The notes beneath the pieces were generated by a model. It saw only the letters and a program-made list of their open reading frames with translations, was not told the origin of the DNA and did not search any database. Of a stretch of DNA of 20,088 bases, positions 3,802-18,665 are shown one piece after another. The DNA is from a virus: IMG/VR virus record IMGVR_UViG_3300024520_000612, positions 1 to 20,088 of that record. One strand, 5' to 3'. Position 1 is the first letter of the stretch; each line of letters opens with the position of its first letter. The position numbers and the translations under genes were made by a program.

Positions 3802-3823
3802 GGAGTCCCGATGTCGGGACCCC
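3802..3823. other. Intergenic hairpin, GTCCCG/CGGGAC family
   Basis: GTCCCG at 3805-3810 pairs with CGGGAC at 3815-3820 around an ATGT loop. After an A/C mismatch, GG at 3802-3803 pairs with CC at 3822-3823. No T-run follows, so it does not look like a classical terminator. It may instead be an RNA processing or stability element between the stop at 3798 and the ATG at 3842. The stem resembles the hairpin at 7585-7606. Confidence 0.55.
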
Positions 3824-4108: not shown

Positions 4109-4116
4109 CATTTCGA

Positions 4117-4166
4117 TAATAAACAGGTACTTGACAGGGACCTCTAGGTGTGGTATACTGGGGGTC
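4117..4166 (+). promoter_or_regulatory. Promoter P3, sigma70-type
   Basis: TTGACA (4131-4136) and TATACT (4154-4159) have a 17-base spacer ending in TGTGG. The upstream block ATAATAAACAGGTAC matches P1, P2 and P4. The predicted start, near 4166, lies in a GGTCCC-TAGC-GGGG element that can form a short 5' hairpin. It should drive the basic protein at 4205 and the helicase at 4691. Confidence 0.88.
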
Positions 4167-4690: not shown

Positions 4691-6115
4691 GTGTTCGCCT
4701 ACAAAGTCCCTCCAATGGGCCACCAGTTGGTGGCCCTGCGGAAGGCATATAAGCCGCCAGAGTACGCCCTGTTCCATGAAATGGGAACGGGCAAAACCTA
4801 TACGGCTATAAATTTAGCAGCAGCGCGTTATGAGGCAGGGCTGATTGACGCGCTGGTAGTTATATGTCCAACCCCGATAAAACACATCTGGGAGGCAGAA
4901 CTTGAAAAATTCTGTCCAGTGGACTATTCATGTTGGGTGTGGGAATCAGGCGACCGATCCGGGGAGAAGTGGTTCAGGGTCAAACGGGACGAGCTTAAAG
5001 TTCTGGTGGTCGGGGTGGAATCCCTATCGATCAAGAATGGCCGATCCATCCAAGCAGTCGAATACTTCAAGCGCTTTCATAAGTTCATGTGCGTTGTCGA
5101 CGAATCCAGCCGCATCAAGAATTGGAAAGCGGCTCGGACCAAAACAGTCATTGAAATCGGGGGCTGGGCCGAGTTCAGGCTTATCCTGACAGGAACACCA
5201 GTGACGCAGGGCCTTGAGGACCTATTCGGGCAATTCCTCTTCCTAAACGCCAAAATCATCGACTGTAAGAACTACTTCGTCTTCCGGAACAAATACTGCG
5301 TGATGGGTGGGTTTCAGGGCAAACAGATACTGGGTTACCAGTTTAAAGAGGACTTGTTAGGCAGAGTGGCTCCCTACACCGATTACGTTACCAAGGAACA
5401 ATGCCTCGATCTGCCGGAACAAGTCTATCCGGAACCAATAGTGGTCAAACCCACTGATGAACAGAAGCGTGTGATGTTGCAAATGAAGACAGAATACGCA
5501 ATGGAAGACCAAGGTAAAGAAATCACAGTTAGTACCGTTTTAGAGCGGACTTTACGCTATCAACAGGTGATTGGAGGCACCTTTCCATATGAAGAAGCAG
5601 ACGGAACTTATCAAACAATTCCTATCTCGGGGAAAAACCCCAAACTTGAGGCCCTTATCGAGTACATTGAATTGCTCCCTAGAGAGTCCAAGGTTATCGT
5701 ATGGGCTAGGTTTGTACCAGAAATCGAGTATATTGTTGAGGCCCTTGGATTTGAGTACGGAAGAGAGAGAGTTGTGTCGTTCTATGGGGCCACAACTCAT
5801 GAGGAACGTCGAGAAAATAGTCGACGCATCCAAGAAGACCCGACGTGCCGTTTTATCGTCAGCAATCAGACGGTCGGGGGGTATGGACAGACTTGGACGA
5901 CTCCAAATTTCGTCGTCTACTACAGTAACACCTTTTCATACGAGGACAGGTACCAAAGCGAATCTCGTCCTCATAGAAAGGGACAGGTTAATCACGTTAC
6001 GTACCAAGATATTGAAATGGCTGTACCTCAGGACCGTATGATCTTGAGGGCGGTGCGCAAGAAAAGGAACCTAGCCGAGGAGGTTGAAGATACACTATTA
6101 AAATCTTCGGCATGA
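4691..6115 (+). CDS. SNF2-type superfamily 2 helicase/ATPase
   Basis: This is an ATP-dependent DNA translocase of the SF2/SNF2 class, 474 aa. A Q-type motif (HQLVALRKA) is followed by Walker A (EMGTGKT, residues 30-36). Motif II is unusual, DESS (137-140) instead of DEAH/DExH, and motif III is TGTP (167-170). The helicase C lobe ends in the motif VI region QSESRPHRKGQ (422-432), typical of SNF2 proteins. GTG 4691 is preferred to the internal ATG at 4715 because it keeps FAYKVPPMGHQ intact. The ribosome-binding site is weak and the gene starts three bases after the upstream stop, so coupling is likely. Similar phage proteins act in replication or recombination; the exact substrate is unknown. 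The stop TGA is fused to promoter P4. Confidence 0.88.
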   Translation: MFAYKVPPMGHQLVALRKAYKPPEYALFHEMGTGKTYTAINLAAARYEAGLIDALVVICPTPIKHIWEAELEKFCPVDYSCWVWESGDRSGEKWFRVKRDELKVLVVGVESLSIKNGRSIQAVEYFKRFHKFMCVVDESSRIKNWKAARTKTVIEIGGWAEFRLILTGTPVTQGLEDLFGQFLFLNAKIIDCKNYFVFRNKYCVMGGFQGKQILGYQFKEDLLGRVAPYTDYVTKEQCLDLPEQVYPEPIVVKPTDEQKRVMLQMKTEYAMEDQGKEITVSTVLERTLRYQQVIGGTFPYEEADGTYQTIPISGKNPKLEALIEYIELLPRESKVIVWARFVPEIEYIVEALGFEYGRERVVSFYGATTHEERRENSRRIQEDPTCRFIVSNQTVGGYGQTWTTPNFVVYYSNTFSYEDRYQSESRPHRKGQVNHVTYQDIEMAVPQDRMILRAVRKKRNLAEEVEDTLLKSSA

Positions 6116-6162
6116 TAAACCAGTACTTGACAGGACAGCCCGGATGTGGTATACTGGTGGAC
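6113..6162 (+). promoter_or_regulatory. Promoter P4, sigma70-type
   Basis: TTGACA (6127-6132) and TATACT (6150-6155) have a 17-base spacer ending in TGTGG. The TGATAAACCAGTAC block upstream includes the stop codon of the helicase gene. The predicted start is near 6162. It is the last member of the promoter family I found and is the best candidate to serve the replication and Z-cassette genes downstream. Confidence 0.87.
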
Positions 6163-6199: not shown

Positions 6200-6655
6200 A
6201 TGGACGACGACCGAAAATCGCAGGTTGAAAGCGCCCTATCGGGCGTAGGTTATGACGAACTAGTGGCCGCTATGTTATCGGCCCAGACCCACCATGCTGA
6301 AATGAAGGCCGCTGCAGCCGAAGCGTGGAATGAAGTTTGTCTTATAGCCCGTCAGATCATCCCTAACCGGATGGACGCTGACAATATCCAAAACATCACG
6401 GTGATCTTGCCGGATGGCAGCAAAAAACAGCTCTTGGTTATGGATCAGGTTAGCGTAAAGACGCCACCTGAGAAGAAGCTTGAGCTTTGGGAGTGGCTAC
6501 GGGATCACGACGCAGCCGAGATAATCACCGAGACGGTGAACTCCAGCACCTTAGCGGCATACGTACGGCAGCAAATGAGAGCGGGTGACCCATACCCCAA
6601 CGACATTTGCGAAGTCAGCGCCTACGCAACCGCTTCCCTCAGAAAGGCGTCGTGA
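6200..6655 (+). CDS. Hypothetical phage protein, 151 aa
   Basis: This is the first gene after P4; ATG 6200 follows ACAGGAGTAGTAA. The N-terminal half is a long helix (YDELVAAMLSAQTHHAEMKA, then EAWNEVCLIARQIIP). A strand pair follows (NITVILPDGSKKQLLVMDQ), then a helical end (PEKKLELWEWLRDHDAAEII). No catalytic motif is visible and I recognise no family. Its place ahead of the replication genes suggests an accessory role there, which is only inference. Confidence 0.65.
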   Translation: MDDDRKSQVESALSGVGYDELVAAMLSAQTHHAEMKAAAAEAWNEVCLIARQIIPNRMDADNIQNITVILPDGSKKQLLVMDQVSVKTPPEKKLELWEWLRDHDAAEIITETVNSSTLAAYVRQQMRAGDPYPNDICEVSAYATASLRKAS

Positions 6656-6797: not shown

Positions 6798-7577
6798 ATG
6801 GCTAGTAAAAAAGAAGTAACGGTGGCACAAGGCACCGATGTGATTGAGCGTCCGAGTTATATGGGCGACACAGGTCGAGGGTCAGAGGAAGTCGGTATCA
6901 ATGACGTCACAATCCCTCGTTTGTCAATCATACAGGACCTGAGTCCTCAGCATAAGAAGAATAAGGCTGAGTACATTGAAGGTGCTGAGGTAGGTATGCT
7001 GTTCGACACGGTGACCATGGGCTTGTACAGCCAGTCGGTTATCTTCGTACCGGTGTACTATCGCCTTGAGTGGGTGATATGGAAGAATCGGGACGCTGGT
7101 GGTGGCTTTATCGGTGCCTACCCGTCGCAGCAAGATGCGGTGGATGCAGTAGGCGCGCACCCCTTGGCTGGTCAAACGACCGAAAAGGAAGAGCCAGTAC
7201 TCGAAATCCAAGACACAGCCCAGCATTTCGGGCTGCTAATGGACCCCAACTCACCAGCCGAAGACCCACGAGCCACTGAGATCGTTATCTCGATGTCAAG
7301 ATCGCAGTTAAAGCCATCCCGTCAATTCAACAGCCAAATTCGCATTGCGACCGGCGACCGGTGGGAGCGGTATTACAGACTCTCCAGTGTCGAGACGCAG
7401 AATGCGGCTGGGCAGGATTACTGGAACTGGAAGATCGAGCAATTGGGCTTTGTCTCCGAGCAGGTATTCGCGCAAGCGGAAATGCTGTACGAGGCGGTCA
7501 TTGCGGGGTCACGCGACGTAGAGCGCGGACCGACATCAACCCCCACCGAAGAAGAAGGGGAAAGCGATAACATGTAA
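6798..7577 (+). CDS. Conserved replication-region protein, possibly ssDNA-binding, 259 aa
   Basis: ATG 6798 follows a strong ribosome-binding site, implying abundant product. The protein has a disordered N-terminus, then a conserved-looking core opening with TIPRLSIIQDLSPQ and continuing through FVPVYYRLEWVIWKNRDAGG and EIVISMSRSQLKPSRQFN. It ends in an acidic tail (TEEEGESDNM), as phage single-stranded DNA-binding proteins often do. I recall similar proteins with a PRL..LQ.LSPQ motif beside podovirus polymerase genes. Single-stranded DNA binding is therefore plausible but unproven. A strong hairpin follows the stop by eight bases. Confidence 0.6.
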   Translation: MASKKEVTVAQGTDVIERPSYMGDTGRGSEEVGINDVTIPRLSIIQDLSPQHKKNKAEYIEGAEVGMLFDTVTMGLYSQSVIFVPVYYRLEWVIWKNRDAGGGFIGAYPSQQDAVDAVGAHPLAGQTTEKEEPVLEIQDTAQHFGLLMDPNSPAEDPRATEIVISMSRSQLKPSRQFNSQIRIATGDRWERYYRLSSVETQNAAGQDYWNWKIEQLGFVSEQVFAQAEMLYEAVIAGSRDVERGPTSTPTEEEGESDNM

Positions 7578-7584
7578 GTCATTT

Positions 7585-7611
7585 GGGGTCCCGGCGTCGG
7601 GACCCCTCTTT
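7585..7611 (+). terminator. Hairpin terminator, or partial terminator
   Basis: A perfect 9-bp stem, GGGGTCCCG (7585-7593) with CGGGACCCC (7598-7606), closes a GCGT loop. It is followed by TCTTTC, a weak T-run. It sits between the abundant upstream gene and the polymerase chain, so it could attenuate transcription rather than stop it. The stem resembles the hairpin at 3802-3823. Confidence 0.65.
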
Positions 7612-7630: not shown

Positions 7631-7849
7631 ATGGTTGCACCATCACACGGCGATCCTGCTATTGACGAGGAAGCCAAAGCACTACTGAAGAAGATTGAGT
7701 CGTTCGGCGCATACCGAAAGAGGGACAATCTGTCAGAGGAAATCTTGAGGAATTTGCTACTCGCATGCGGCATCCTCTTCATTAAATGTATACCCCACCT
7801 GATTGTTAGAGTTAAGCAATCACCCAATATCAACAACGGGAGAAAATGA
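7631..7849 (+). CDS. Hypothetical protein, 72 aa, hydrophobic near C-terminus
   Basis: ATG 7631 is chosen because AGGAAAGGTT precedes it; the longer reading from TTG 7583 would start inside the hairpin. The first 45 residues are charged and helical (DEEAKALLKKIESFGAYRKR). A hydrophobic stretch follows (LLLACGILFIKCIPHLIVRV, residues 47-66), which could be a membrane anchor or a buried helix. The stop overlaps the next start as ATGA. This gene begins the unbroken chain leading to the polymerase. No family is recognised. Confidence 0.62.
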   Translation: MVAPSHGDPAIDEEAKALLKKIESFGAYRKRDNLSEEILRNLLLACGILFIKCIPHLIVRVKQSPNINNGRK

Positions 7850-8106
7850 TGGGTGACTTCGTTCACAAAGAGCTAGGTGGGTCCATTTTCCGCAATGATA
7901 GGCGGGATAAGGACACCCAACCGACCCACAAGGGTGACTGTAAGATCGATGGCATTGACTATTGGATCAGTGCATGGACCAATGAAACTAAGAACGGGGA
8001 CAAATACTTCGGCCTGAAATTCGAGAAGAAGGAAGCTAAATACCAGACCGGGGAAGCGGCACCCGCACTTCCGGTTGGGGATATAGACGAAGACATACCC
8101 TTCTAA
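7846..8106 (+). CDS. SSB-like small protein with acidic DIPF tail, 86 aa
   Basis: The start overlaps the previous stop; ATG 7849, one codon in, is also possible. The body has a compact beta-rich pattern (HKGDCKIDGIDYWISAWTNE, then KYFGLKFEKKE). It ends in GDIDEDIPF, which closely resembles the C-terminal tip of bacterial SSB (acidic residues followed by DIPF) that recruits replication partners. I infer a small single-stranded DNA-binding or replication-hub protein. The body is shorter than bacterial SSB, so it may be a different fold with a convergent tail. Its stop TAA shares one base with the polymerase ATG (TAATG). Confidence 0.65.
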   Translation: MMGDFVHKELGGSIFRNDRRDKDTQPTHKGDCKIDGIDYWISAWTNETKNGDKYFGLKFEKKEAKYQTGEAAPALPVGDIDEDIPF

Positions 8107-9950
8107 TGTATCCGGATTTGTCCCGATACCCGTACTTTGCGTACGATACCGAGACTACCGGATTACGATACCCAATAGATAAGGCATTTGCCTGCTCTAT
8201 TGCTGTGCCCGGTGGGGAGTCTTGGTACTTCGATTTCCGGCGACAGCCAAAAGCCATCGAGTGGCTAAACGACCAACTTAGGGAGCTATCAGAGGTTGCC
8301 CGAGTTATTTGCCACAACGCGCCGTTTGACGCTTCGATGTCGGCTGTCGCTGGAATTCACATCCCCTTGCATCTGCTCGACGACACGGTGATAAGAGCCT
8401 GTCTGATCAATGAGCATGAAGCGTCAGTATTCCCATGGAATCGCAAGAAGAGACCCGGGGGCTACAGTTTAGACTACCTCTGCCGCAAGTATCTCAAGAA
8501 GGGTAAATTTGAGATCGACATAGAGAATATTGAGCATCTACCTGAGGCAGAAGTTAGAGGCTATGCTGTTCAGGATGCTATCCTAACTCTCGAGCTTTGG
8601 GAGTGGCAAGAAGAGCAGATCAAGAAAGAGAACCTCTACCGAATTGAGAAGCTTGAGCGCAATTGCATGCCGATCATAATTGAGTCCCAGATGGCTGGGA
8701 TTCGGGTCGACCTTAATGAGACTGAACGAGCGATGGAGGCAATGACCCCTCATATCGCCAATCTCCAGTGCGAAATGAATACGATAGCAGGGTGGGACTT
8801 TAACGTTAACTCCGGCCCTCAGATGATTAAGCTATTTGATCCGACCAAGACCAACTCGGGCTGGTGGGTTGGGCGTAATAGGATCGGTACCACAGACAAG
8901 GGAGCGCCAAGCTTCCGGAAGGAGTACCTTGAAGAACTCGCAGATTTCGACCCACGCGCCAGAATGGTCACGGATATTAGATCAGCACTCAAGACCCGGG
9001 ACACGTTTCTGGCCAAGCACATCCTTGAACACGCTATCGGGGATCGGGTTTACCCCACCATCAACCAGACGGTTAGGGAAACTGGCGGCACTAAGTGGGG
9101 ACGATTATCATACGTTGATCCTGCGATGCAACAAATCCCCTCGCGAGATAAAATCACAGCTGCCATTGTTAAGCCTTGTTTCCTCCCCGACGAGGGACAA
9201 ATCTGGCTCGACTACGACTTGGCCTCGTTTGAGGTACGGGTATTTGCGGCATTGGTCGGAATGTACAATGACTACTTAGTTAGGCTATACCAAAAGGACC
9301 CACGGCTAGACTTCCATCAGCTTGTGGCCGACCTCACAGGCTTGGTCCGCAATGCGGAGTATGGGGGTCAGCCCAACGCCAAACAATTAAATCTCAGCAT
9401 GATCTTCTCTCAAGGTGCTGGGGCTACCGCCCAGAAGATGGGCATGGAGACAACGGACGCGGAGTTTACCGATGAATGGGGAGACAAAATTAAGTACCAA
9501 CGAGCCGGAAATGACGCATATCGAATTATCGATAAGTACCATAGTAAGGTTAGAGGAGTTAGAAAGCTGGCTGAAACGGCTAGAAAAGTTGCAGAGACAC
9601 GTGGGCACCTGCGTACTAAATACGGGCGACACATACGATTCCCGAAGCGATATAAAAGTTACAAGGCTAGTGGAATCCTCATCCAAGCCACTTCTGCCGA
9701 TATCAACAAAGAGAATTGGTGCCTTATTGACGACGCTTTGGATGGACGAGGACGAATAGCCCTCAATACGCACGACAGCTACAGCATGTCAGTTGACATA
9801 GACACGCTGGAGGGAGTAAAAAAGGACATAGTAGGGGCAGTTGAGCGAGAATTCTTAGGTGTACCGCTCCTACTTGATTTAAATGGGGTTGGGTCGAACT
9901 GGTGGTCGGCTCTTAAGGACGAGGGGATAGAAGGTGCTGTTACCGATTAA
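8106..9950 (+). CDS. dpoZ: Family A DNA polymerase, DpoZ-like
   Basis: This replicative polymerase is 614 aa and has a proofreading domain. The DEDDy exonuclease is intact: D14 and E16 in AYDTETTG, D75 in CHNAPFD, Y153 and D157 in YAVQD. The palm and fingers follow: motif A at D371 (DLASFEVR), motif B around K426 (AKQLNLSMIF) and motif C at H556-D557 (THDSY). Motifs B and C differ from Pol I and T7: by eye the usual Arg is Gln, the aromatic residue after Lys is Leu, and HDE reads HDS. Family A polymerases beside purZ in other Z-phages (DpoZ) are known to favour diaminopurine over adenine. Together with the purZ, mazZ and datZ neighbours this supports the dpoZ name. The gene overlaps the PrimPol gene by 17 bases. 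Confidence 0.85.
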   Translation: MYPDLSRYPYFAYDTETTGLRYPIDKAFACSIAVPGGESWYFDFRRQPKAIEWLNDQLRELSEVARVICHNAPFDASMSAVAGIHIPLHLLDDTVIRACLINEHEASVFPWNRKKRPGGYSLDYLCRKYLKKGKFEIDIENIEHLPEAEVRGYAVQDAILTLELWEWQEEQIKKENLYRIEKLERNCMPIIIESQMAGIRVDLNETERAMEAMTPHIANLQCEMNTIAGWDFNVNSGPQMIKLFDPTKTNSGWWVGRNRIGTTDKGAPSFRKEYLEELADFDPRARMVTDIRSALKTRDTFLAKHILEHAIGDRVYPTINQTVRETGGTKWGRLSYVDPAMQQIPSRDKITAAIVKPCFLPDEGQIWLDYDLASFEVRVFAALVGMYNDYLVRLYQKDPRLDFHQLVADLTGLVRNAEYGGQPNAKQLNLSMIFSQGAGATAQKMGMETTDAEFTDEWGDKIKYQRAGNDAYRIIDKYHSKVRGVRKLAETARKVAETRGHLRTKYGRHIRFPKRYKSYKASGILIQATSADINKENWCLIDDALDGRGRIALNTHDSYSMSVDIDTLEGVKKDIVGAVEREFLGVPLLLDLNGVGSNWWSALKDEGIEGAVTD

Positions 9951-12111
9951 CGATGTCCGGGATATTGACCGGATCAAAGATTTCAATACAAAGATACACC
10001 AAGCTGCTAGATTGTACGCGGAGAATGGGATACCAATCGTTCCCTTGCGTCCACATAGCAAAATTCTGCCCGAGCGAAAGACGGGCATCAATTACTTCAG
10101 CGGATCGACCAAGCCAAAGACCATGGACAAGTGGTTTGGCCCTAGTGGGCGGTACCAAGGTTGGAATATCGGGGTAGTGTGTGGAGTTGAGGTCTTCGTG
10201 ATCGACCTCGACTTGCATGGCCGGGAAAACGGGCTTGAGAATTGGGATGAATTTAGGGGTGAGCATAATATCAATTGCCCCACCGCTGAGACACCCACCG
10301 GGGGTCGACACTTGTACCTACGGTGGCGAGAGAATCTCACGAGTAGCTCCGGGAAGCTCGCTCGGGGTGTCGATACCCGTGGAGGCGACGGGAAGCCCCG
10401 CTCGCACGTCGTCTGTTGGCCCTCGGAAACGGAGGACGGTTCCTATAGCTGGCTGACGGGGGGCGACGTACCCGACACACCAGAGTGGGTATCGGACGCT
10501 ATGGGGATACCTTGGTCCGCTAAACCGGGTCGTGGCAATGAGGAGGTCGGACAGGACGACGAGGAATTTAAATATGAGCTACATCAAATCGCCGCGATGC
10601 TGGACCATGTTGACACCAATGTTTTATCGTACGAGGAATGGCTATTTGTGGGACAGGCAATTAATAGCCAGCACCCTAGTGAAGATGGACTCAAACTTTG
10701 GGACGCGTGGTCGGCTAATGGCGACCGTTACGTACAGGGGGAGTGTCAGAAACGTTGGCCGGGATTCAATCCCGCTGGGACCATACGAGTTGGATCACTT
10801 ATATATTTCGCTAAACAGGGCGGATACGACCCAAGCAGCGATCCTGCGCGCTCTGGAGACTTTGAAGAGTTAGTGGATCGGATGAATGAGGACAATGCTA
10901 TCCTGCTGAGTGGGGGTAAAATTAGGGTAGCCCACCGGACAATTGATGGGAAAGTGCACATAATGGGGCTACAGGACTTTAGTGCCCTGCACTATAATCG
11001 AACAATCACCATACCTAACAAGAAAAGTAGAACCACCGAAGCTGACATTTGGATGGGTCACCCATTACGCAGAGAGTGTATAAGGGGCATGGGCTTCTTC
11101 CCGGATGAACCAATATGGTATGAGGGCTATGTTAACGTGTGGCGAGGCTGGGGGGTTAAGCCAGTGGAGGGGAACTGGGATATGTTCAAACTCCACGTTA
11201 GAGAAATCCTGTGCGATGGGAATGAGCGGTTATACGACTTTGTCCTTGATTGGGTGGCTGACATGATACAAGACCCAATGAACCCCAAGGGTACCGCAAT
11301 CGTGATGCATGGTAAGGAGGGGACCGGTAAAGGGACCTTCTGTGAAATGGTAGGCGCGATAGTGGGCAAGGATCACTATAAACACGTAACTAACGAGCGC
11401 CACCTGACCGGCAATTTTAACTCTATACAATTAGATGCACTATTTATGTTCGCAGACGAGGTGATTTATGGCGGATCAAGATCAACAGCCGGTATCCTCA
11501 AATCAATGGTCACCGAAAAGCAGTTGGTGTGTGAACGTAAGGGTCTTGAGCCTTTTATGTATGACAACCGAATGCGAGTTGCTGTGGCCTCCAACGAGGA
11601 TTGGTTTATACCTGCAGGGCCGGAATCAAGAAGATGGCTCGTACTGGAACTCAATGACAAAAAGGCAAATGACCGCCCTTACTTCGATAAGCTCTACACG
11701 CAAATGATCGACGAGGGTGGGTTAGAGGCAATGATGTACGATCTGCAGACCCGCAAGATTAAGAGCAACCTAACCAAGGCGATAGTGACCAAGGGCCTAC
11801 AAGCTCAGCGGGATATTTACCGATCCACTGGCGATTCGGTTGATATTTGGATGGATGAATGTATAGGTAAGGCCGATCTTGGAGTTCCGGACGAGGGACA
11901 AGGGGGATGGCCGGATGATTGTGATAGAATGGCCCTATTTGAAGCCTTTAACGCTTGGGCTAAGGATGGGAAAATAAAAACTAAGGGCACAGCCCATTTT
12001 TATAGGAAGTTGGAGAGTTATGGATTCGTTAAACACAGACCACAGCAAGATGGCATCCGAAGGTGGAGATACAAAATCCCTCCCCATGCCAAATTCTCAA
12101 CCGAAAGTTGA
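9934..12111 (+). CDS. PrimPol-SF3 helicase fusion (primase/helicase)
   Basis: This bifunctional replication protein, 725 aa, makes primers and unwinds DNA. The N-terminal AEP-type prim-pol domain shows VIDLDLHG (D91, D93), TPTGGRHLYLRW and GVDTRGGDGKPRSHVV. A PriCT-2-like domain follows at about residues 207-305 (LSYEEWLFVGQAINSQ, LWDAWSANGDRY). The C-terminal SF3/D5-type helicase has Walker A GKEGTGKGT (460-468), Walker B ending ADE (D508, E509) and a sensor-like VAVASNEDWF. The GTG at 9934 lies in the last codons of the polymerase, with GAGGGG upstream, so the two are coupled. Cyanophage S-2L also pairs a PrimPol with a Z cassette, but here a family A polymerase is present as well. Confidence 0.87.
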   Translation: MLLPINDVRDIDRIKDFNTKIHQAARLYAENGIPIVPLRPHSKILPERKTGINYFSGSTKPKTMDKWFGPSGRYQGWNIGVVCGVEVFVIDLDLHGRENGLENWDEFRGEHNINCPTAETPTGGRHLYLRWRENLTSSSGKLARGVDTRGGDGKPRSHVVCWPSETEDGSYSWLTGGDVPDTPEWVSDAMGIPWSAKPGRGNEEVGQDDEEFKYELHQIAAMLDHVDTNVLSYEEWLFVGQAINSQHPSEDGLKLWDAWSANGDRYVQGECQKRWPGFNPAGTIRVGSLIYFAKQGGYDPSSDPARSGDFEELVDRMNEDNAILLSGGKIRVAHRTIDGKVHIMGLQDFSALHYNRTITIPNKKSRTTEADIWMGHPLRRECIRGMGFFPDEPIWYEGYVNVWRGWGVKPVEGNWDMFKLHVREILCDGNERLYDFVLDWVADMIQDPMNPKGTAIVMHGKEGTGKGTFCEMVGAIVGKDHYKHVTNERHLTGNFNSIQLDALFMFADEVIYGGSRSTAGILKSMVTEKQLVCERKGLEPFMYDNRMRVAVASNEDWFIPAGPESRRWLVLELNDKKANDRPYFDKLYTQMIDEGGLEAMMYDLQTRKIKSNLTKAIVTKGLQAQRDIYRSTGDSVDIWMDECIGKADLGVPDEGQGGWPDDCDRMALFEAFNAWAKDGKIKTKGTAHFYRKLESYGFVKHRPQQDGIRRWRYKIPPHAKFSTES

Positions 12112-13069
12112 TCTAGTACTTGATCTTCAATTCGGTAGTACAGGCAAAGGGCTGATTTGCGGGTATTTGGGCGAATCAGGGGATCATGACACTTGCATAA
12201 CGGCTAACATGCCGAATGCTGGGCATACTTACATCAATCAGGCCGGGACAAAATATATATTTAAGGTACTGCCGAGTTCGGCGGTATGCCCCAGTATAAG
12301 GACGATAATGATCGGCCCGGGGGCGGTATTTAGCCTCGACCGGTTGAAAGAGGAAATGGTGTATCTTAGGGCGGACCAGACCCTCCGGATTCATCCTGCT
12401 GCAATGGTGCTGACTCCAGAGCATCGGAAAAAAGAAATGGCGACGTTAGGTCATATCGCCAGTACGTGCCAAGGTAGTGCAGCTGCCATGGTAGACAAGA
12501 TATGGAGGGGCAACCCATCCATGGCTAAATACGTACTCAAGGACACCAAATTTGAACAGTACCTTTGTACTCACGCCGAATGGCAGATGCGATTAGCAAT
12601 GTCAGACGGTATACTTGCAGAGGGGTCGCAGGGCTATAGTCTCGGGATTAACACGCATTTCTATCCCTACACTACCAGTCGTGATTGTGGACCTGCGGCC
12701 TTTCTCTCTAACATGGGCATACCTCTTGGGATGCTTAGTCGAATAATCGGCACCTGTCGTACCCTGCCAATCCGTGTCGGGGGGACAAGTGGCGATTGCT
12801 ATCCGGATCAGGAGGAGTTGACTTGGGAAGAATTAGGTCTCGAACCTGAGTTAACGACTGTCACCAACCGGGTGCGCCGCATCTTTACTTACAGTAAGTT
12901 GCAAATCGAGGAGGCCATTTGGTGGTGTGACCCTGATCTGGTCTTCCTCAACTTCGCCAATTATGTCGACAAAGACTACGTGTCAAATATCGTGGCCCAC
13001 ATCGACACTTTCAGTACGGTTCGGTGGGTCGGGTTTGGTCCCGCCTACCAAGATATAGGAGTAGTGTAA
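12086..13069 (+). CDS. purZ: PurZ, 2-aminodeoxyadenylosuccinate synthetase
   Basis: PurZ joins aspartate to dGMP, giving N6-succino-2-amino-dAMP, the first committed step to dZTP in Z-genome phages. The nucleotide loop reads QFGSTGKG (15-22 of this start). PurA has QWGDEGKGK there, and its catalytic Asp is replaced by Ser, the known PurZ hallmark. ANMPNAGHTYIN, AEGSQGYSLGIN, IRVGGTSGDCYPDQEELTWE and VTNRVRRIFTYS follow in the order of the family. I recall the same GSTGKG loop in the Vibrio phage phiVC8 enzyme. ATG 12086 gives the usual N-terminus with a 26-base overlap of the primase gene. ATG 12020 (best ribosome-binding site, but 92-base overlap) and 12050 are alternatives. Its stop shares one base with mazZ. 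Confidence 0.93.
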   Translation: MPNSQPKVDLVLDLQFGSTGKGLICGYLGESGDHDTCITANMPNAGHTYINQAGTKYIFKVLPSSAVCPSIRTIMIGPGAVFSLDRLKEEMVYLRADQTLRIHPAAMVLTPEHRKKEMATLGHIASTCQGSAAAMVDKIWRGNPSMAKYVLKDTKFEQYLCTHAEWQMRLAMSDGILAEGSQGYSLGINTHFYPYTTSRDCGPAAFLSNMGIPLGMLSRIIGTCRTLPIRVGGTSGDCYPDQEELTWEELGLEPELTTVTNRVRRIFTYSKLQIEEAIWWCDPDLVFLNFANYVDKDYVSNIVAHIDTFSTVRWVGFGPAYQDIGVV

Positions 13070-13395
13070 TGCCAGTAGAACTAGGCGGCGTCAATGCCGA
13101 CATTAGGGTAATTTCTAGGGCTATTAAGAAGTGGGCCGATGAAATTATGCCCCAGCGTTTGCCAGCAGACGCAATCAAGAAGCTCTCAATGGAGGAAGTG
13201 CCAGAGTTATGGAGAGCCTTAAAGGACTATGGAACAGTGGACCCCGGTGAAATAGCCGATGTCCTGATCCTTGCCCTTGACATCTGTGAATTGTCTAAAA
13301 TCGACCCACTGGAGGCGATACACGATAAGATGTTAATCAACCAGAGTCGGACGTGGAAATTCGAACACGGGGTGTTACAACATGAAAATAAATGA
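13069..13395 (+). CDS. mazZ: MazZ, MazG-type dGTP pyrophosphohydrolase
   Basis: This all-alpha NTP pyrophosphatase has 108 aa. ATG 13069 overlaps the purZ stop by one base and has AGGAG at 13057-13061. The MazG metal-binding pattern is present as E43-x2-E46 (EEVPE) and E61-x2-D64 (EIADV), followed by the helix LILALDICELSKIDPLEAI. In Z-phages this family (MazZ) converts dGTP to dGMP, the substrate of PurZ. The position directly after purZ is the main reason for choosing this over a generic house-cleaning MazG. It overlaps datZ by 14 bases. Confidence 0.85.
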   Translation: MPVELGGVNADIRVISRAIKKWADEIMPQRLPADAIKKLSMEEVPELWRALKDYGTVDPGEIADVLILALDICELSKIDPLEAIHDKMLINQSRTWKFEHGVLQHENK

Positions 13396-13882
13396 CATTT
13401 TACGGGCATCGGGCGTCACCCGGTGGCACATAGTCCGGACTGTACGCCCCCAGAGCCTAGCGGAGCATACGTTCGACGTGTGTATGATTGCCCGGGCGAT
13501 AGCTAAGATAGCGGGGTACGACGATGCGGAAATTACTAAGGCAGCACTACTCCACGACCTTGATGAAGTTGTCACGGGTGACTTCCCAACTCCGACTAAG
13601 AGTCGAGCGCGTGATAATGGGTGGGAGCTTAATGACCTATATAAGAGCGTCACGGGGCGGGAACTTAGTCAAGACGAATCGACTATCATCCACTTGGCCG
13701 ACAAAATGGCCGACCTCCACTGGCTGTGGTTGCATGCGCTTGGACCCCATGCTAATCAAGTGTATGAGAACATGGCCGAGTACTACAATCAGTACGTGCG
13801 GTCCGATTCGGTACCGGATAACATTCGGGAAGCGGCACTTGAGGTTCAACAGCAGATGTTATCTGAGGAGTTTACAATATGA
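13382..13882 (+). CDS. datZ: DatZ-like HD phosphohydrolase (dATPase)
   Basis: This HD-domain enzyme has 166 aa, close to the length of known DatZ and YfbR. The metal ligands are visible: H29 in SLAEHTFDV, H58-D59 in LLHDLDE and D107 in HLADKMADL. W15 lies where YfbR-type enzymes have the Trp that senses the deoxyribose. In Z-phages DatZ removes triphosphate from dATP, emptying the pool so adenine is kept out of the genome. A generic 5'-nucleotidase is the alternative, but the purZ-mazZ neighbourhood argues for DatZ. It starts inside mazZ and its stop overlaps the next ATG as ATGA. Confidence 0.87.
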   Translation: MKINDILRASGVTRWHIVRTVRPQSLAEHTFDVCMIARAIAKIAGYDDAEITKAALLHDLDEVVTGDFPTPTKSRARDNGWELNDLYKSVTGRELSQDESTIIHLADKMADLHWLWLHALGPHANQVYENMAEYYNQYVRSDSVPDNIREAALEVQQQMLSEEFTI

Positions 13883-14382
13883 GCCGGGGCGAACAAAAAA
13901 TGTGGAAGTACCTTCGCCCTAAATTGAAGCCATATGGACACTTTGAGAGGATTGAAAGTCATGAAACAGCTATCGGAACTCCTGATGTCGACTATTGTAT
14001 CGGGGGATATTGCAATCATATTGAACTCAAATTTACGGAGAGTGAAAAACGAGGACTTCGACTTCGCCCTTCACAGGCTTCTTGGTTCCGACGAAGAACT
14101 AAAGCTGGTGGTCAGCCGTGGCTCTTGGCACAAGCTATTGTTCGTAACAAGCGGGGATACGTACTGGTTCCGGGTACGAACGTACCGGCTTTGGCCCGTA
14201 CAACTAGAATTACCGATTGGTTAATGGCAGGAGTAATGGTATGGGAAGATCAAATAGTGATAGAGGAATTGATGGTATTCTTAAGCACCTTCCTGATAAC
14301 GGAACCACAAGACGGTGGAAATGGTGCCCAAGAACAAGAATCCTCTGGATTGATATTGCCATCAACAAAGTTGACGAGCTAG
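13879..14382 (+). CDS. VRR-NUC-like PD-(D/E)XK nuclease, 167 aa
   Basis: The N-terminal 110 residues carry the nuclease core: RIESHET (E26), GTPDVDYCIGG (D36), and the catalytic HIELKF (E49-x-K51), followed by LRPSQASWF, a conserved Gln/Trp element of VRR-NUC and Holliday-junction-type nucleases. The likely substrate is branched or flapped DNA during replication, recombination or packaging. The start overlaps datZ as ATGA, so it belongs to the same chain. The last 48 residues look unconserved and overlap the next predicted gene by 142 bases, so the true tail could be dispensable. Confidence 0.75.
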   Translation: MSRGEQKMWKYLRPKLKPYGHFERIESHETAIGTPDVDYCIGGYCNHIELKFTESEKRGLRLRPSQASWFRRRTKAGGQPWLLAQAIVRNKRGYVLVPGTNVPALARTTRITDWLMAGVMVWEDQIVIEELMVFLSTFLITEPQDGGNGAQEQESSGLILPSTKLTS

Positions 14383-14576
14383 ACTGGGCGCACAAACAAA
14401 TGATGCGTCGGGGGCCGTGTATTGTCATGCTCCGAGTTTATCAGGTTATCTGGACCTATTACTCAGGTGCAGCGTCGCCCACCAGTTATATGAACACCAC
14501 TATTGGCAGACACCAATACGATCTTATGGACGACGCTTTCTCACTCGCTTCTTCGGCTTCTTGGAATGAGAGATAA
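14241..14576 (+). CDS. Hypothetical protein, 111 aa, overlapping the nuclease gene
   Basis: ATG 14241 has AGGAG at 14229-14233, seven bases upstream, a strong site. The frame encodes a plausible folded protein (RRWKWCPRTRILWIDIAINK, then VDELDWAHKQMM). It lies for 142 bases within the end of the nuclease gene. A shorter version from ATG 14400 avoids that overlap. The 3' end also overlaps the convergent 48-aa gene by 53 bases. I do not recognise the family. It is the last rightward gene, at the point where the two transcription directions meet. Confidence 0.48.
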   Translation: MGRSNSDRGIDGILKHLPDNGTTRRWKWCPRTRILWIDIAINKVDELDWAHKQMMRRGPCIVMLRVYQVIWTYYSGAASPTSYMNTTIGRHQYDLMDDAFSLASSASWNER

Positions 14577-14670
14577 ACTTCTTGGCAGCTTTCTTGCCGA
14601 TGCCTATCTTGCCCCTTCCAGAGGCCGCAGCGTACATTGCACGTTTCTGCTTGGCTGATTTGAATGGCAT
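14524..14670 (-). CDS. Small very basic phage protein, 48 aa
   Basis: The product begins MPFKSAKQKRAMYAAASGRG and ends in a run of Lys and Arg (SKKPKKRVRKRRP). Proteins starting MPFKS.AQRRAMYAAA are common in phages, often near lysis or structural genes, with no settled function. The charge suggests nucleic-acid binding. The start shares one base with the holin stop (TAATG), and GGGAAGG lies upstream at fair spacing. It is the last gene of the leftward operon and runs 53 bases into the convergent plus-strand gene. Confidence 0.75.
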   Translation of the reverse strand: MPFKSAKQKRAMYAAASGRGKIGIGKKAAKKFISHSKKPKKRVRKRRP

Positions 14671-15071
14671 TATTTAGCCTTCCCTTTCACCTTTTCAACT
14701 GTACGCATCGTCCCCAACAGTCCGAGCATACCAAGGGTGAGTTGCATGATTACAGTCGTTGGGAGTTCCGGCCCGGGCTTATCGGTGATCCACTGAATCC
14801 ATGGATTGATCAGCATCATGTTGAGTACCCCCATGCCGCAAACCCAACCGATCCAAGGACGCCAGCCAGCGACAAAGATTGACCGGTGCTGGGCCTCTAC
14901 CTTGTTGATCTCGGTTTGGACCATATGCGGCTGTTGGGCAATCCGCATGCGAATCTCTTCGTGGGTCAACTTCTCGTCTTTCGACGTAAACAGACCATCA
15001 AGCACGTTCCCTACGGCTGATATAGCGGGAATAGCGTCGCCAACGCCGAAGATTTTGCTTAAGAAGCCCAT
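14670..15071 (-). CDS. Holin, GTA-type 3TM family
   Basis: This inner-membrane protein of 133 aa lets the endolysin reach the cell wall. An amphipathic N-terminus (MGFLSKIFGVGDAIPAIS) and a charged helix precede the signature SIFVAGWRPWIGWVCGMG (about 65-82). A second hydrophobic segment follows, and the chain ends in LTLGMLGLLGTMRTVEK. This matches the GTA_holin_3TM pattern as I know it. The start overlaps the stop of the 33-aa micro-ORF as TGATG. Placement directly downstream of the endolysin gene supports the call. Confidence 0.8.
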   Translation of the reverse strand: MGFLSKIFGVGDAIPAISAVGNVLDGLFTSKDEKLTHEEIRMRIAQQPHMVQTEINKVEAQHRSIFVAGWRPWIGWVCGMGVLNMMLINPWIQWITDKPGPELPTTVIMQLTLGMLGLLGTMRTVEKVKGKAK

Positions 15072-15172
15072 CAGTTGAGCAGGATCAGGGCCAAAATCAC
15101 CATAGATATGATGTAATGGATGCCGCTCCGATATTTGGCCTCAAAGGCCTTTACTGCCAGTAGATATTTCAT
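15071..15172 (-). CDS. 33-aa single-TM micro-ORF in the lysis cassette
   Basis: The start shares one base with the endolysin stop (TAATG) and the stop shares one base with the holin start (TGATG), so it fits the gap exactly. GAGGGCGG lies eight bases upstream of the ATG. The peptide has a basic N-terminal half (MKYLLAVKAFEAKYRSGIHY) and a C-terminal hydrophobic helix (IISMVILALILLN). It should insert in the inner membrane with a cytoplasmic basic end. It could be an antiholin, a pinholin or another lysis modulator. The exact junctions and ribosome-binding site make chance unlikely. Confidence 0.7.
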   Translation of the reverse strand: MKYLLAVKAFEAKYRSGIHYIISMVILALILLN

Positions 15173-15627
15173 TATACCGCCCTCAGGCCCAGATCATAAT
15201 GGGTGCCTTTAGCATCCCGGTAGGCCGTTAAATCTTGCAACCGGACATCAACTTCCTCTGGCGATATTCCAACGTGTACCCACTGTCCGAATTCGTGGAT
15301 AACTTGGTCGTACGGTAATGCAGCCGCTTTTATGTGTTCAGCAGCTTCTAGGGGGGTTAGACCATTGATGATAAAGTCTGCCGCCCTTCCGTCCATGTGC
15401 GCGGAAGTGGTGGACCCACCTATGAGTTGATTGAGTTCCAACGGACGATAACCGGACGTAACTGAAACAGGAAGCCCAATTATATCCCTGATGGGTTGAA
15501 GAATATCAACACAGAGACGCCGTAAGTTATCAATAACCTCGATAGGTGGGTCCATGTTAATTCCATGTCGTGCCGCAGTTTGCGACCGCAGGAACTCGTA
15601 AAGATAAAAATTATCTGTTAGCTTCAT
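15172..15627 (-). CDS. Endolysin, M15-family peptidase
   Basis: This cell-wall peptidase of 151 aa is of the M15_3 / D-Ala-D-Ala carboxypeptidase type and cuts peptidoglycan cross-links at lysis. The zinc ligands are visible: H77 and D84 in SAHMDGRAADF, and H118 in WVHVGI; E112 (IHEFG) fits the catalytic acid. VTSGYRP (56-62) is also typical. No signal peptide is seen, so release depends on the holin downstream. It overlaps the membrane-protein gene upstream by 17 bases. Confidence 0.88.
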   Translation of the reverse strand: MKLTDNFYLYEFLRSQTAARHGINMDPPIEVIDNLRRLCVDILQPIRDIIGLPVSVTSGYRPLELNQLIGGSTTSAHMDGRAADFIINGLTPLEAAEHIKAAALPYDQVIHEFGQWVHVGISPEEVDVRLQDLTAYRDAKGTHYDLGLRAV

Positions 15628-15895
15628 TGATCAGGTACTCCGTAAAGATTGTCTCAAATCGCTCTTGCGACTCAAGCGCCGTAGCTATGTTAGTCTCGAT
15701 GTTCTCGATGCTGCCCTTGATCACTTCCACGTCAGTTGTGATCTGGGTGGTGTCGGGTATTACAATCTCGTCCAGCTGGGCCTTAACCTCGGTGGCGATC
15801 CAGAACTGCGCCGCCATCCCAAGTACGGCAAGCACAAACCCGCCCCCAAGAAAGCTGCCAACTGAAATTATAACGGTTTTAGTCTTCGGGGTCAT
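15611..15895 (-). CDS. Single-pass membrane protein with coiled-coil tail, 94 aa
   Basis: ATG 15895 is chosen over upstream Mets because GAGG lies seven bases before it and it overlaps the preceding gene by only 17 bases. After a short basic start (MTPKTKT) comes one membrane segment (VIISVGSFLGGGFVLAVLGM). A probable coiled coil follows (IKGSIENIETNIATALESQE, RFETIFTEYLINEANR). This topology next to holin and endolysin resembles an inner-membrane spanin (Rz-like). No matching outer-membrane lipoprotein is evident, so the spanin idea is weak. Confidence 0.62.
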   Translation of the reverse strand: MTPKTKTVIISVGSFLGGGFVLAVLGMAAQFWIATEVKAQLDEIVIPDTTQITTDVEVIKGSIENIETNIATALESQERFETIFTEYLINEANR

Positions 15896-16433
15896 TTTCA
15901 AGCCTCTGTATAGTTTGTCGTGCGTAATCGCGTCGTTGCTGCGCTTTACGTGCAGCGGCTCGATTACCCGCTTCAATTCTGGCGAGACGGTCTTCAATGC
16001 TATCGTCGACTTTTTCATGCTCGACCCGATATTCCTCAAGGTCATAGCCCCCGCTTCCCTCTTTCATTACGGGGGCTGGTGCTGGGGGTGGTGGTCGGTA
16101 TTCAGTGGTGTCAATACACTCTTCTACGGAGCCGTACACTTTCCTGAACCGTCTAACAGAACAGCGCATCATTGCCGCTTCATGGTGTTTACCATCGGCG
16201 TCTAACCCATCAGCCACACACATAGTGTTAAGATGTGTACCCTGCCATAATCCGAACAGTATCGAGTGGGTTGCAAGGCACTGGTTAATGTCCATGTCGC
16301 CACCGGACATGCCATAAACGGTACTACCCTTTATGTTTGTAGCGACGTCCCCCGTTACGAGGTCATTCTCGATTTCGATGTCGTCACCGCTGGCGAAAGC
16401 CAGCATCGGTAGTAATAGAAGTAAATACCTCAT
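15879..16433 (-). CDS. Secreted or periplasmic hypothetical protein, 184 aa
   Basis: A clear signal peptide opens the protein (MRYLLLLLPMLAFASG), with no lipobox Cys. The mature part holds several Cys (NQCLATHS, NTMCVADG, MMRCSVRR, EECIDTTE) that could form disulfides in the periplasm. A proline-rich hinge follows (YRPPPPAPAP), then an acidic and basic helical end (DDSIEDRLARIEAG, AARKAQQRRDYARQTIQRLE). The start overlaps the 32-aa ORF stop as ATGA. It could be a lysis accessory, such as an unusual outer spanin partner, or a virion-associated protein. Confidence 0.68.
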   Translation of the reverse strand: MRYLLLLLPMLAFASGDDIEIENDLVTGDVATNIKGSTVYGMSGGDMDINQCLATHSILFGLWQGTHLNTMCVADGLDADGKHHEAAMMRCSVRRFRKVYGSVEECIDTTEYRPPPPAPAPVMKEGSGGYDLEEYRVEHEKVDDSIEDRLARIEAGNRAAARKAQQRRDYARQTIQRLENDPED

Positions 16434-16528
16434 ACGTTTGTCGCCATCCTCGCAAGCTGTAGACCGCTATTATCGTAGTCATGGGGATTACCATCAAAAA
16501 TTCTGGGCGCTTGGTGGATTATACTCAA
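16430..16528 (-). CDS. 32-aa micro-ORF repeating a tail-protein N-terminus
   Basis: The TTG at 16528 overlaps the tail-protein stop (TTGA), and the TGA overlaps the next ATG (ATGA), so the ORF fits the gap exactly. Its N-terminus, SIIHQAP after the start, equals that of the tail-associated protein at 16525-17295. The rest (RIFDGNPHDYDNSGLQLARM) is different. No ribosome-binding site is clear. It may be a real small protein, a remnant of a lost tail gene, or a recombination scar. Confidence 0.55.
   Translation of the reverse strand: MSIIHQAPRIFDGNPHDYDNSGLQLARMATNV
16505..16527 (-). repeat. Tail-gene start repeat, copy A
   Basis: On the minus strand this 23-base segment begins TGAGTATAAT and ends CCAAGCGCCC. 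It matches copy B at 17272-17294 at 21 of 23 positions. Both copies begin with a TGA that is the stop of an upstream tail gene overlapping the start of the next ORF. Confidence 0.7.
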
Positions 16529-17295
16529 GGGAAATAAGCCCATCTGGTGTGTTGGGTGTAATGATTAGCGCTAGATGGGAAAGGGGTATAACCTTGTTCG
16601 AATTCAGAGTAGGCAATACCGGGGTTCGTATACTTAAACTTAAAATTGACCCACATGGTGTCTACGGCTGGACCAACATCCCCACTATCGTTTACACCAA
16701 TCGATGCGATTGTCTCCATACCCTCTGGGTCGGTAGAGTCAACTGTTGGGGTTAATGCTCCGTTATTATTTCGTCTTCTAAACTCCCAGAGCATAGCAAA
16801 CGCATCCGGATCATTGGTGGTATTAAGTGCCAAGGAAGTACCGGGCGGGAAGCCAACGTCCCAATCATCACCGATATTTGGCGTATTGAGGAATCCGCCT
16901 TGAAATAGGGCAGGTGTATCGGTAAAATCAGTCTGGTGCCGAATCCTGCACATAAAGGCAACCATCAGATTAGTGTGGGCAGTAATACCAAATTCGTCCG
17001 CTGCGGTAGCGTCTGCCTTTCTCCTGAAAATTTTAACGGAATTACTAAGTCCAGTAACTACCTGAGTCCAATCGCCCGGATTTGATGGCTGTGAAAGAAT
17101 TCCGCTACTAGCGATGATAACAAATAAATCATCGTCTACCCCAATACTGGGCGGTTGCGGAATATTTTGTGCGCCCTGACCATCAACAAGAGAATTATAC
17201 CAACCCGGGGCGACAGCTTCGATACGGATAAGTCCTTGCTCAAAGCCGCCAGCAGCGCCAATATAAACACCGGGTGCTTGGTGAATTATACTCAT
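16525..17295 (-). CDS. Tail-associated protein, 256 aa, beta-rich
   Basis: ATG 17295 overlaps the fibre-gene stop (ATGA); the longer reading begins inside the fibre gene and is rejected. The protein opens MSIIHQAPGVYIGAAGGFEQ and is rich in strands, Gly, Asn, Asp and Thr, with no membrane segment (for example SVKIFRRKADATAADEFGIT and MWVNFKFKYTNPG). I infer a tail-fibre tip, a receptor-binding subunit or a second fibre protein, from the position and composition. No catalytic pocket is visible. Its end carries the next copy of the start repeat. Confidence 0.62.
   Translation of the reverse strand: MSIIHQAPGVYIGAAGGFEQGLIRIEAVAPGWYNSLVDGQGAQNIPQPPSIGVDDDLFVIIASSGILSQPSNPGDWTQVVTGLSNSVKIFRRKADATAADEFGITAHTNLMVAFMCRIRHQTDFTDTPALFQGGFLNTPNIGDDWDVGFPPGTSLALNTTNDPDAFAMLWEFRRRNNNGALTPTVDSTDPEGMETIASIGVNDSGDVGPAVDTMWVNFKFKYTNPGIAYSEFEQGYTPFPSSANHYTQHTRWAYFP
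17272..17294 (-). repeat. Tail-gene start repeat, copy B
   Basis: On the minus strand this segment begins TGAGTATAAT and ends CCAAGCACCC. It is 21/23 identical to copy A at 16505-16527. It encodes the SIIHQAP start of the tail-associated protein and overlaps the stop of the tail fibre. Confidence 0.7.
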
Positions 17296-18335
17296 GGTGT
17301 AAAGTTCGTCGTGCCCCACCACCAAAACTCGGTCGGGCTGCGCTTCCAAAGTGAGCCAAGGAACCCCGTCTGCAGGGTCCAAGATTGCGTCGCTGTCTTG
17401 GTGGTTCGAACCCCGGCTGCGCTTATATGGATCGCAGTAACGCCCGTACCCACTAATAGAGTAACGTCCCCGGCACCTTCATTGGACATACCATACAATC
17501 CACCATCAGCGACAGTCGCATCTTGATCAATAGTCCACGTTTCAGCGTCGGCATCCTCATTGAGGACCATGGTACCATTGCCATCGAGGTCGAAGGTATA
17601 GGCCCCGTCTTCCAACTTCGGAGCCATGATGTTGTAGCCCACTACGCGCAGGACCCCAAGCGTGTCCGATGCCCTAAGAAGCGACCCGGTTTGGAGTGTT
17701 ATATCTACCCCACCAAGGACAGCTTGTATGATCATGTCCTGAGTGGCACCATCTACAAAGCCGATTTCCCCTTGGACGACACTACCAGCGTCTAAGAAAC
17801 GCATGGAAACTAAAGAGGAAGCACCGTTCTCAACGTTATCCTGCAGGTGCAGAATGTCGTTATCGGAACCTTGAAGCTGTAACCGCCCATTCAGCGCGAG
17901 GAACGTGGTTAAAGCTACCTCATACAGCTTGGTGGTGTTATTCCACCGGAGCAGCTGGCCTTCAATCGTGCCGATCGGTAGAGCTTGGATTGCCACCACG
18001 TCGCCCGTGAGGTCTTGGATCATCATTGTTAGCCTGTCCAAGGCGTCTTCGTGCGAACCCGAATCGAACGGATCGTAACGGGCGTAGTCCAATAACTGAC
18101 TCTGCGGAGTGGATCGCAAGATCGTGAAGAACTGCAAGTTTGGCGGAGCCACCAAATAAGTAGCCGTTCCACCCGGGGTGGCTTCCTGATCCACGTTCAG
18201 GGCAAAGGTGTCGAAATCATCGAGGAAATCAACACTCAGCCAATTGACATCATCGACCCTAAACGCAAAATTGAATACAGTTTGGATTCCATCGCCCGTA
18301 TAATCGATGGAATTGCCTCCAGTTTGAACGGTCAT
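17292..18335 (-). CDS. Tail fibre protein with T7-like N-terminal domain
   Basis: This adsorption protein has 347 aa. Residues 1-130 match the T7 gp17 N-terminal attachment domain pattern: YTGDGIQTVFNFAFRV, then LVAPPNLQFFTILRSTPQSQ, then DALDRLTMMIQDLTGDV. The rest is repetitive and beta-rich (LQLQGSDNDILHLQDN, YTFDLDGNGTMVLNEDADAE), as in trimeric fibre shafts, and ends WKRSPTEFWWWGTTNFTP. No chaperone or autoprotease domain is seen. It is much shorter than T7 gp17 (about 550 aa), so the host-binding tip may be carried by the next gene. The start lies four bases downstream of the preceding stop. Confidence 0.8.
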   Translation of the reverse strand: MTVQTGGNSIDYTGDGIQTVFNFAFRVDDVNWLSVDFLDDFDTFALNVDQEATPGGTATYLVAPPNLQFFTILRSTPQSQLLDYARYDPFDSGSHEDALDRLTMMIQDLTGDVVAIQALPIGTIEGQLLRWNNTTKLYEVALTTFLALNGRLQLQGSDNDILHLQDNVENGASSLVSMRFLDAGSVVQGEIGFVDGATQDMIIQAVLGGVDITLQTGSLLRASDTLGVLRVVGYNIMAPKLEDGAYTFDLDGNGTMVLNEDADAETWTIDQDATVADGGLYGMSNEGAGDVTLLVGTGVTAIHISAAGVRTTKTATQSWTLQTGFLGSLWKRSPTEFWWWGTTNFTP

Positions 18336-18338
18336 AAT

Positions 18339-18653
18339 CTAGTCCTTAGTTGGTCTTTCCTTTTCTAAACAGTCGTAGACAGCCCCAACCATGCCGACAC
18401 CGTAAATAACGCCGACCAGTTCTTTGAGCAGAGCAACTTCCTCAGCTGTGAGTTCAACATCGCCACCTGCATGGACTGTTTGCAGTAGCCTGTAGATTTT
18501 GAGCTTGTCCTCACCTGTCTTGTGTTCCTGTGGATTGGCATTAACGCATGCCATCATAAGCACTTTACCCAACGTTACTGGCGAATCGTCCTCTCCTTCC
18601 GTGATGGGCTTGCCATCAAACCCTACTAACTCTTCTTCCATATTGTATTTCAT
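18339..18653 (-). CDS. Conserved phage hypothetical protein, 104 aa
   Basis: The start follows AGAGAGAACAATA, a weak to fair ribosome-binding site, 12 bases after the ejected-protein stop. The pattern GFDGKPITEGEDDSPVTLGK, then KLKIYRLLQTVHAGGDVELT, then AEEVALLKELVGVIYGVGMV is like a family of small proteins I recall from many phages and prophages. Their function is not established to my knowledge. The location between ejection and fibre genes suggests a virion or assembly role. Confidence 0.65.
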   Translation of the reverse strand: MKYNMEEELVGFDGKPITEGEDDSPVTLGKVLMMACVNANPQEHKTGEDKLKIYRLLQTVHAGGDVELTAEEVALLKELVGVIYGVGMVGAVYDCLEKERPTKD

Positions 18654-18665
18654 TATTGTTCTCTC

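Follow-up and report, generated by a model that had tools for sequence, protein, structure and literature searches.

We describe a gene cassette in the IMG/VR record IMGVR_UViG_3300024520_000612, a stretch of 20,088 bases from an uncultured phage, hereafter called the window. Between positions 8106 and 13882 it carries five intact, overlapping genes on the plus strand, encoding a DpoZ polymerase, a primase-helicase, PurZ, MazZ and DatZ. The system in which Z (2-aminoadenine) takes the place of adenine is known, and the reactions of the single enzymes have been established for homologues in published work. We read the cassette as the module with which a phiVC8-like tailed phage, its adenine replaced by Z, makes Z and replicates its DNA, and assign this reading a probability of about 0.87. 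Because the gene order is that of phiVC8 and ZP6, the window, judged from its genes, belongs to a divergent phiVC8-like Z-phage, which very probably makes Z-containing DNA. The cassette itself is a divergent member of a known group; what is new is the loss of two exonuclease helices (E1/E2) from its polymerase and the exchange of datZ among its relatives.

Identification of the Z cassette

An earlier sequence-only reading of the window had reported a DpoZ-like family A polymerase, PurZ, MazZ and DatZ in one overlapping chain. All are present and intact, its naming of these four enzymes is supported, and the five-gene observation is confirmed as real and far beyond chance. The chain runs past the cassette at both ends, with SSB upstream and a nuclease downstream; from SSB through DpoZ, primase-helicase, PurZ, MazZ and DatZ to the nuclease, successive genes overlap by 1, 17, 26, 1, 14 and 4 nucleotides. 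The ratio of nonsynonymous to synonymous substitution rates (dN/dS), where estimable, is about 0.04-0.18 for PurZ, MazZ, DatZ and DpoZ. No near DNA relatives were found among the 50,697 named phage records searched.

PurZ scores 313.6 bits against NCBIfam NF038379 (cut-off 300) and stays far below the PurA cut-offs. Its catalytic loop reads QFGSTGKG where PurA has QWGDEGKG, so that Ser replaces Asp13 of PurA, exactly as had been claimed. The nearest solved structures are those of phiVC8 PurZ (PDB 6fm1/6fko, 366 bits). The sequence-only reading had named a tree of PurZ and cellular PurA as its own test, and in that tree the window enzyme lies within the PurZ branch, adjoining phiVC8, K300 and ZP6, with support of 100/100 for its separation from 12 bacterial PurA and 99/98 for its separation from PurZ0. 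The HMM (hidden Markov model) scores and the tree rule out a cellular PurA. Since PurZ is a PurA homologue (PF00709), one might still suppose an ordinary phage adenylosuccinate synthetase that boosts adenine synthesis, surrounded by unrelated nucleotide-pool genes. We consider this extremely improbable: the Ser-for-Asp loop, the scores relative to the two sets of cut-offs and the fixed synteny with DpoZ, MazZ and DatZ all oppose it, and we count the tree position as already refuting it. A longer PurZ open reading frame opens at 12020; we take 12086 as the most likely true start.

DpoZ reaches 701.7 bits against NF038380 (cut-off 500), and its nearest solved structure is phiVC8 DpoZ (PDB 7pbk, 634 bits). 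The signature residues L430, F434, G523 and S558 (phiVC8 L455, F459, G548 and S583) are present, the exonuclease acids D14/E16/D75 (phiVC8 D26/E28/D85) and the HD dyad are kept, and insertions 1-3 of phiVC8-like DpoZ align without loss.

MazZ residues E42, E43, E46, E61, D64, I67, D71 and R94 correspond to all eight active-site residues of MazZ-1, given for S-2L as the metal ligands E34, E35, E38, E50 and D53, the guanine-specificity residues I56 and D60, and R83 (PMC8342488); E43, E46, E61 and D64 stand where the sequence-only reading had placed them. The same work separates MazZ-1 (S-2L) from MazZ-2 (phiVC8). The nearest solved structure is S-2L MazZ (PDB 7ody, E 1.1e-12). Among named phages, all tblastn matches at E <1e-8 fall in Z-phages with MazZ-1 (Acinetobacter, Klebsiella, Salmonella, Pseudomonas PSA28 and Providencia phages, Bm1, BUCT555 and S-2L), and in phiVC8/ZP6-group phages there is no tblastn match at E <0.01. 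Identity to MazZ-2 of the phiVC8/ZP6/OH type is about 20-28% in forced alignment. The absence of tblastn matches and the MazZ-1 residues rule out a phiVC8-type MazZ-2. Since the residues are those of MazZ-1 and the matches are confined to MazZ-1 phages, a phiVC8-like DpoZ/PurZ backbone is joined here to an S-2L-like MazZ, as it is in BUCT555 and Bm1. Vibrio phage K300 is annotated without mazZ, and its datZ annotation is about 30 codons longer than homologues; the over-long annotation may hide a small MazZ-2 gene (L014:7027-7290).

The remaining cassette protein, the primase-helicase, combines an N-terminal Prim-Pol domain (archaeo-eukaryotic primase, AEP; PF09250), PriCT_2 (PF08707) and a C-terminal DUF5906 helicase-like domain of the P4 type (PF19263) with a Walker A motif. 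It is 41-43% identical over its full length to the primases of phiVC8, ZP6 and K300 (phiVC8 p28, 41% over 99%). Similarity to the S-2L PrimPol, an All3500-like AEP, was not detectable (blastp best E 0.31), which rules out the S-2L enzyme. Because the protein lacks that similarity and matches several hundred phage records, mostly phages of hosts without a PurZ match here, we assign it to the general phage replication module; it is neither Z-specific nor diagnostic. The PrimPol gene that the sequence-only reading had counted in the cassette is therefore present, but as a p28 homologue and not as a diagnostic Z component.

DatZ and its divergent active site

DatZ matches the dATP triphosphohydrolase family phrog_7076 with E 4e-30. 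By sequence its best solved structure is S-2L DatZ (PDB 6zpa, E 8e-12), and the same structure is the best fold match of the predicted model (E 1.1e-6, TM (template modelling) scores 0.75/0.72), ahead of YfbR. The metal ligands H29, H58, D59 and D107 are kept and lie where they had been reported. When compared with the published active site (PMC8065100), W15 and I17, which correspond to the residues for base and sugar specificity (reference W20 and I22), are also kept, as are R14, P71, K73, Q24, A27 and G66 (reference R19, P79, K81, Q29, A32 and G74).

One position departs from this pattern. S-2L K116, described as strictly conserved and phosphate-contacting (PMC8065100), is replaced in the window by H104. 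Relatives sharing the cassette were sampled as a clade of 12 IMG/VR genomes or fragments, window included; of the nine DatZ proteins in this clade, eight have H or Q at the equivalent position and one (L034) has K. YfbR and every other DatZ examined carry Lys there. The window DatZ shares only 32-35% identity with characterised DatZ proteins. These two features would suit an HD deoxynucleotidase that has switched to mono- or diphosphates or to another substrate and is not a dATP triphosphohydrolase. We regard such a switch as unlikely, given that the metal ligands and all the other residues listed above are kept and that the best fold match is DatZ and not YfbR. Moreover, E. coli YfbR has Lys too, so its loss gives no pointer toward YfbR. 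The DatZ dN/dS of 0.05-0.15 indicates purifying selection and rules out a decaying gene as the explanation of H104.

Loss of the exonuclease helices in the clade polymerase

The window DpoZ lacks about 16-17 residues that form the mobile extended exonuclease helices E1/E2 of phiVC8 DpoZ; R161 is among the missing residues, and M165 aligns with I139. In phiVC8-like DpoZ, E1/E2 are marked by R161, or K in its place, and by M165, for which I or A may stand. The helices are absent from all 10 clade DpoZ that cover the region (the window and nine relatives) and present in all 10 phiVC8-like DpoZ from outside the clade with which they were compared (phiVC8, ZP6, K300, BUCT555, Bm1, PMBT28, SH-Ab 15497, Barton, OH and L057, a contig of a metagenome-assembled genome, MAG).

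E1/E2 is a part of the polymerase thought important for proofreading. In phiVC8 DpoZ, the R161A/M165A variant loses exonuclease activity and discriminates more strongly between Z and A, the paired values being 342 and 1.9 uM in the variant and 449 and 15.6 uM in the wild type (PMC8599892).

Exchange of datZ in the clade

datZ is present in nine of the 12 clade members; in the other three (L007, L010 and L012) a DUF7220 gene, an intact open reading frame of 73-89 residues, lies instead between mazZ and the nuclease gene. Phages with phiVC8-like DpoZ are said to all possess datZ, mazZ and purZ (PMC8599892), and PurZ phages mostly encode DatZ (PMC12884076); the three datZ-less members depart from the published universality of datZ in phiVC8-like DpoZ phages. 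The sequence-only reading had called the cassette complete, which holds for the five intact genes of the window but hides both that datZ is exchangeable in the clade and that DpoZ is without E1/E2.

The L007 record is complete (40,822 bp, with a 141-bp exact terminal repeat), and a search along its whole length gave no match to DatZ or HD_3. Nor was another dATPase found: among the 31 early-region and adjoining open reading frames scanned, up to about 21.4 kb and thus short of the convergent structural genes beyond, there is no HD, dUTPase or NDT family, and the sole nucleotide-pool match is MazZ itself (PF04447, E 0.0045). Window and L007 DNA are 82-84% identical up to 13382 and again from 13886, the break falling exactly at the datZ borders. 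The three datZ-less records are metagenome contigs, two of them from one sample (3300020235), so an assembly artefact might be suspected. This is very improbable: three divergent contigs from two samples carry an intact DUF7220 open reading frame, the alignment of window and L007 holds on both flanks of a break precisely at the gene borders, and the terminal repeat of one datZ-less contig shows it to be complete.

Mapped on a tree of PurZ plus primase, datZ presence and absence require at least three independent switches, forced by well-supported branches, and relatives about 92% identical in PurZ differ in datZ presence. In this clade datZ is an optional, exchangeable slot. Uneven identities (window and L034 share 83% in DatZ, dS 0.86, and 65% in PurZ, dS 2.4), together with the swap, are no more than suggestive of horizontal movement of datZ, since dS is saturated. 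The DUF7220 genes of L007 (L007:11319-11540) and L012 are 89% identical, their PurZ proteins far less alike; the slot therefore seems to have been exchanged as a unit.

Proposed mechanism and extent of substitution

By homology with the characterised systems, we infer that the window proteins carry the activities of their homologues and that virion DNA holds Z. MazZ would convert dGTP to dGMP, which PurZ would join with aspartate to give succino-dZMP; host PurB would then free fumarate to yield dZMP, and host kinases would raise this to dZTP. DatZ would clear dATP by converting it to dA. The primase-helicase would prime and unwind, and DpoZ would copy from its primers, preferring dZTP over dATP. 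With E1/E2 lost, the exonuclease of the clade polymerase may be weaker or differently gated, and selectivity for Z may be kept or raised, leaving DatZ as an optional helper.

Taken together, the loss of E1/E2 and the exchange of datZ may point to a polymerase whose selectivity allows the phage to do without DatZ. Specifically, clade DpoZ might act like phiVC8 R161A/M165A, with less exonuclease and higher selectivity for Z over A, so that the polymerase alone excludes adenine and datZ is optional; we hold this tentatively, as a possible account. Alternatively, dZTP might be made while an altered or missing DatZ leaves virion DNA a mixture of Z and A. phiVC8 DpoZ alone puts in some adenine at physiological dATP, and DatZ has been invoked for a pure Z genome (PMC8599892); a complete relative lacks datZ, its presence has switched repeatedly, and the triphosphate-contacting Lys has become H or Q in most clade DatZ. 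The window itself has datZ, under purifying selection, and the DpoZ change may instead raise selectivity (PMC8599892). Such partial substitution is, in our judgement, also a minority possibility.

Several points weigh against reading the cassette as a module that replaces adenine with Z: (i) DatZ has H104 in place of the triphosphate-contacting Lys. (ii) The absence of datZ from relatives would be explained as well if some members tolerate traces of adenine. (iii) The HMM comparison proposed by the sequence-only reading succeeds for DpoZ and PurZ, both above their NCBIfam cut-offs, but for MazZ no dedicated cut-off is reached in either Pfam or NCBIfam. (iv) The AlphaFold model of DpoZ is limited (predicted TM score, pTM, 0.41; poor domain placement), and we therefore used only its exonuclease domain, as weak support. 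(v) The window is a genome fragment, and the reading covers that part of the genome.

The clade touches on an open question, namely what share of adenine exclusion falls to the polymerase and what share to the clearing of dATP. With a trimmed DpoZ and datZ either present or absent, it offers a direct test case, and its DpoZ variants are ready-made for making Z-DNA.

Comparison with known Z-phages

The named-phage collection was compared without phiJL001. Vibrio phage phiVC8 (Enhodamvirus) shares with the window an SNF2 helicase, Pam3-gp33/34-like genes, SSB, DpoZ, primase, PurZ, MazZ, DatZ and nuclease, and its structural genes converge from the opposite strand. Identities are about 53-55% for PurZ, 50-51% for DpoZ, 41-43% for the primase and about 35% for DatZ. 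Where phiVC8 carries MazZ-2, a further endonuclease gene upstream of DpoZ, and a DpoZ with E1/E2, the window differs in its MazZ-1, its lack of E1/E2 and H104 of DatZ. In Alteromonas phage ZP6 (Mareflavirus) the genes stand in the same order and likewise overlap, with identities of about 51-53% for PurZ and about 50% for DpoZ, but its MazZ is MazZ-2-like, E1/E2 are kept, and the structural and tail genes differ within the range compared.

Stenotrophomonas phage BUCT555 and Burkholderia phage Bm1 likewise pair phiVC8-like DpoZ/PurZ with MazZ-1 (35-40%). In both, however, DpoZ keeps E1/E2 and DatZ keeps Lys, and in Bm1 DpoZ and PurZ are not separated by a primase gene. Cyanophage S-2L shares the eight MazZ-1 active-site residues, the DatZ specificity residues and the purZ-mazZ-datZ order, but has no DpoZ, and its PrimPol is unlike that of the window in sequence. 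The Arthrobacter phage Wayne/PurZ0 type resembles the window in the PurZ fold and the Ser of the catalytic loop; it differs in its separate PurZ0 branch, its Wayne-like DpoZ and the use of DutZ/DmtZ for MazZ/DatZ (PMC12884076).

When one genome collection was scanned for a host, the single find was a ZP6-like contig, part of a gammaproteobacterial MAG; the PurZ of this contig, at 49% identity, is too distant for naming a host. Besides this Z-phage contig (L057) and a cellular purA, the MAG (G008) holds a further PurZ-like gene on contig C631.

Gene coordinates and neighbouring features

Table 1 Genes of the cassette and its flanks in the window
Feature	Coordinates	Strand	Details
SSB	7846..8106	+	86 residues; phrog_18154 (E 1e-10), phrog_7364; 1-nucleotide overlap with DpoZ; cassette flank
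DpoZ, predicted aminoadenine-selective family A polymerase with 3'-5' exonuclease domain	8106..9950	+	614 residues; NF038380, PDB 7pbk
Primase-helicase	9934..12111	+	725 residues, GTG start; PF09250, PF08707, PF19263
PurZ, predicted succino-amino-deoxyadenylate synthase	12086..13069	+	327 residues; NF038379, PDB 6fm1/6fko, tree
MazZ, MazZ-1 (S-2L, DUF550) type, predicted (d)GTP pyrophosphohydrolase	13069..13395	+	108 residues; PDB 7ody
DatZ, predicted HD-domain dATP triphosphohydrolase	13382..13882	+	166 residues; phrog_7076, PDB 6zpa
VRR-NUC/nuclease-like gene (PHROG 'DNA helicase')	13879..14382	+	phrog_2165 (E 6e-23); synteny; cassette flank

The nuclease gene occupies the position of phiVC8 p23 and of the ZP6 nuclease. 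Upstream of DpoZ, proteins of the Pam3 gp33-like (DUF7307) and gp34-like families are encoded at 6200-6655 and 6798-7577; such genes also lie upstream of DpoZ in phiVC8-like phages and are conserved beside the Z module.

A 58-nucleotide intergenic element occurs in four copies (237-294, 1361-1418, 4109-4166 and 6105-6162). Each contains a near-perfect sigma-70 promoter, TTGACA-17-TATACT or TACAAT with TG before the -10 box, behind a common upstream sequence, and the elements are probably early promoters for the host polymerase. Two near-identical palindromic 22-mers, GGAGTCCCGATGTCGGGACCCC at 3802-3823 and GGGGTCCCGGCGTCGGGACCCC at 7585-7606, look like intergenic terminator hairpins.

The IMG/VR contig 3300027881_000696 (L006) differs from window positions 12021-20088 at 12 of 8,068 bases and reaches 331 bases beyond the right end; it comes from another assembly and represents either this phage or a sister of it.

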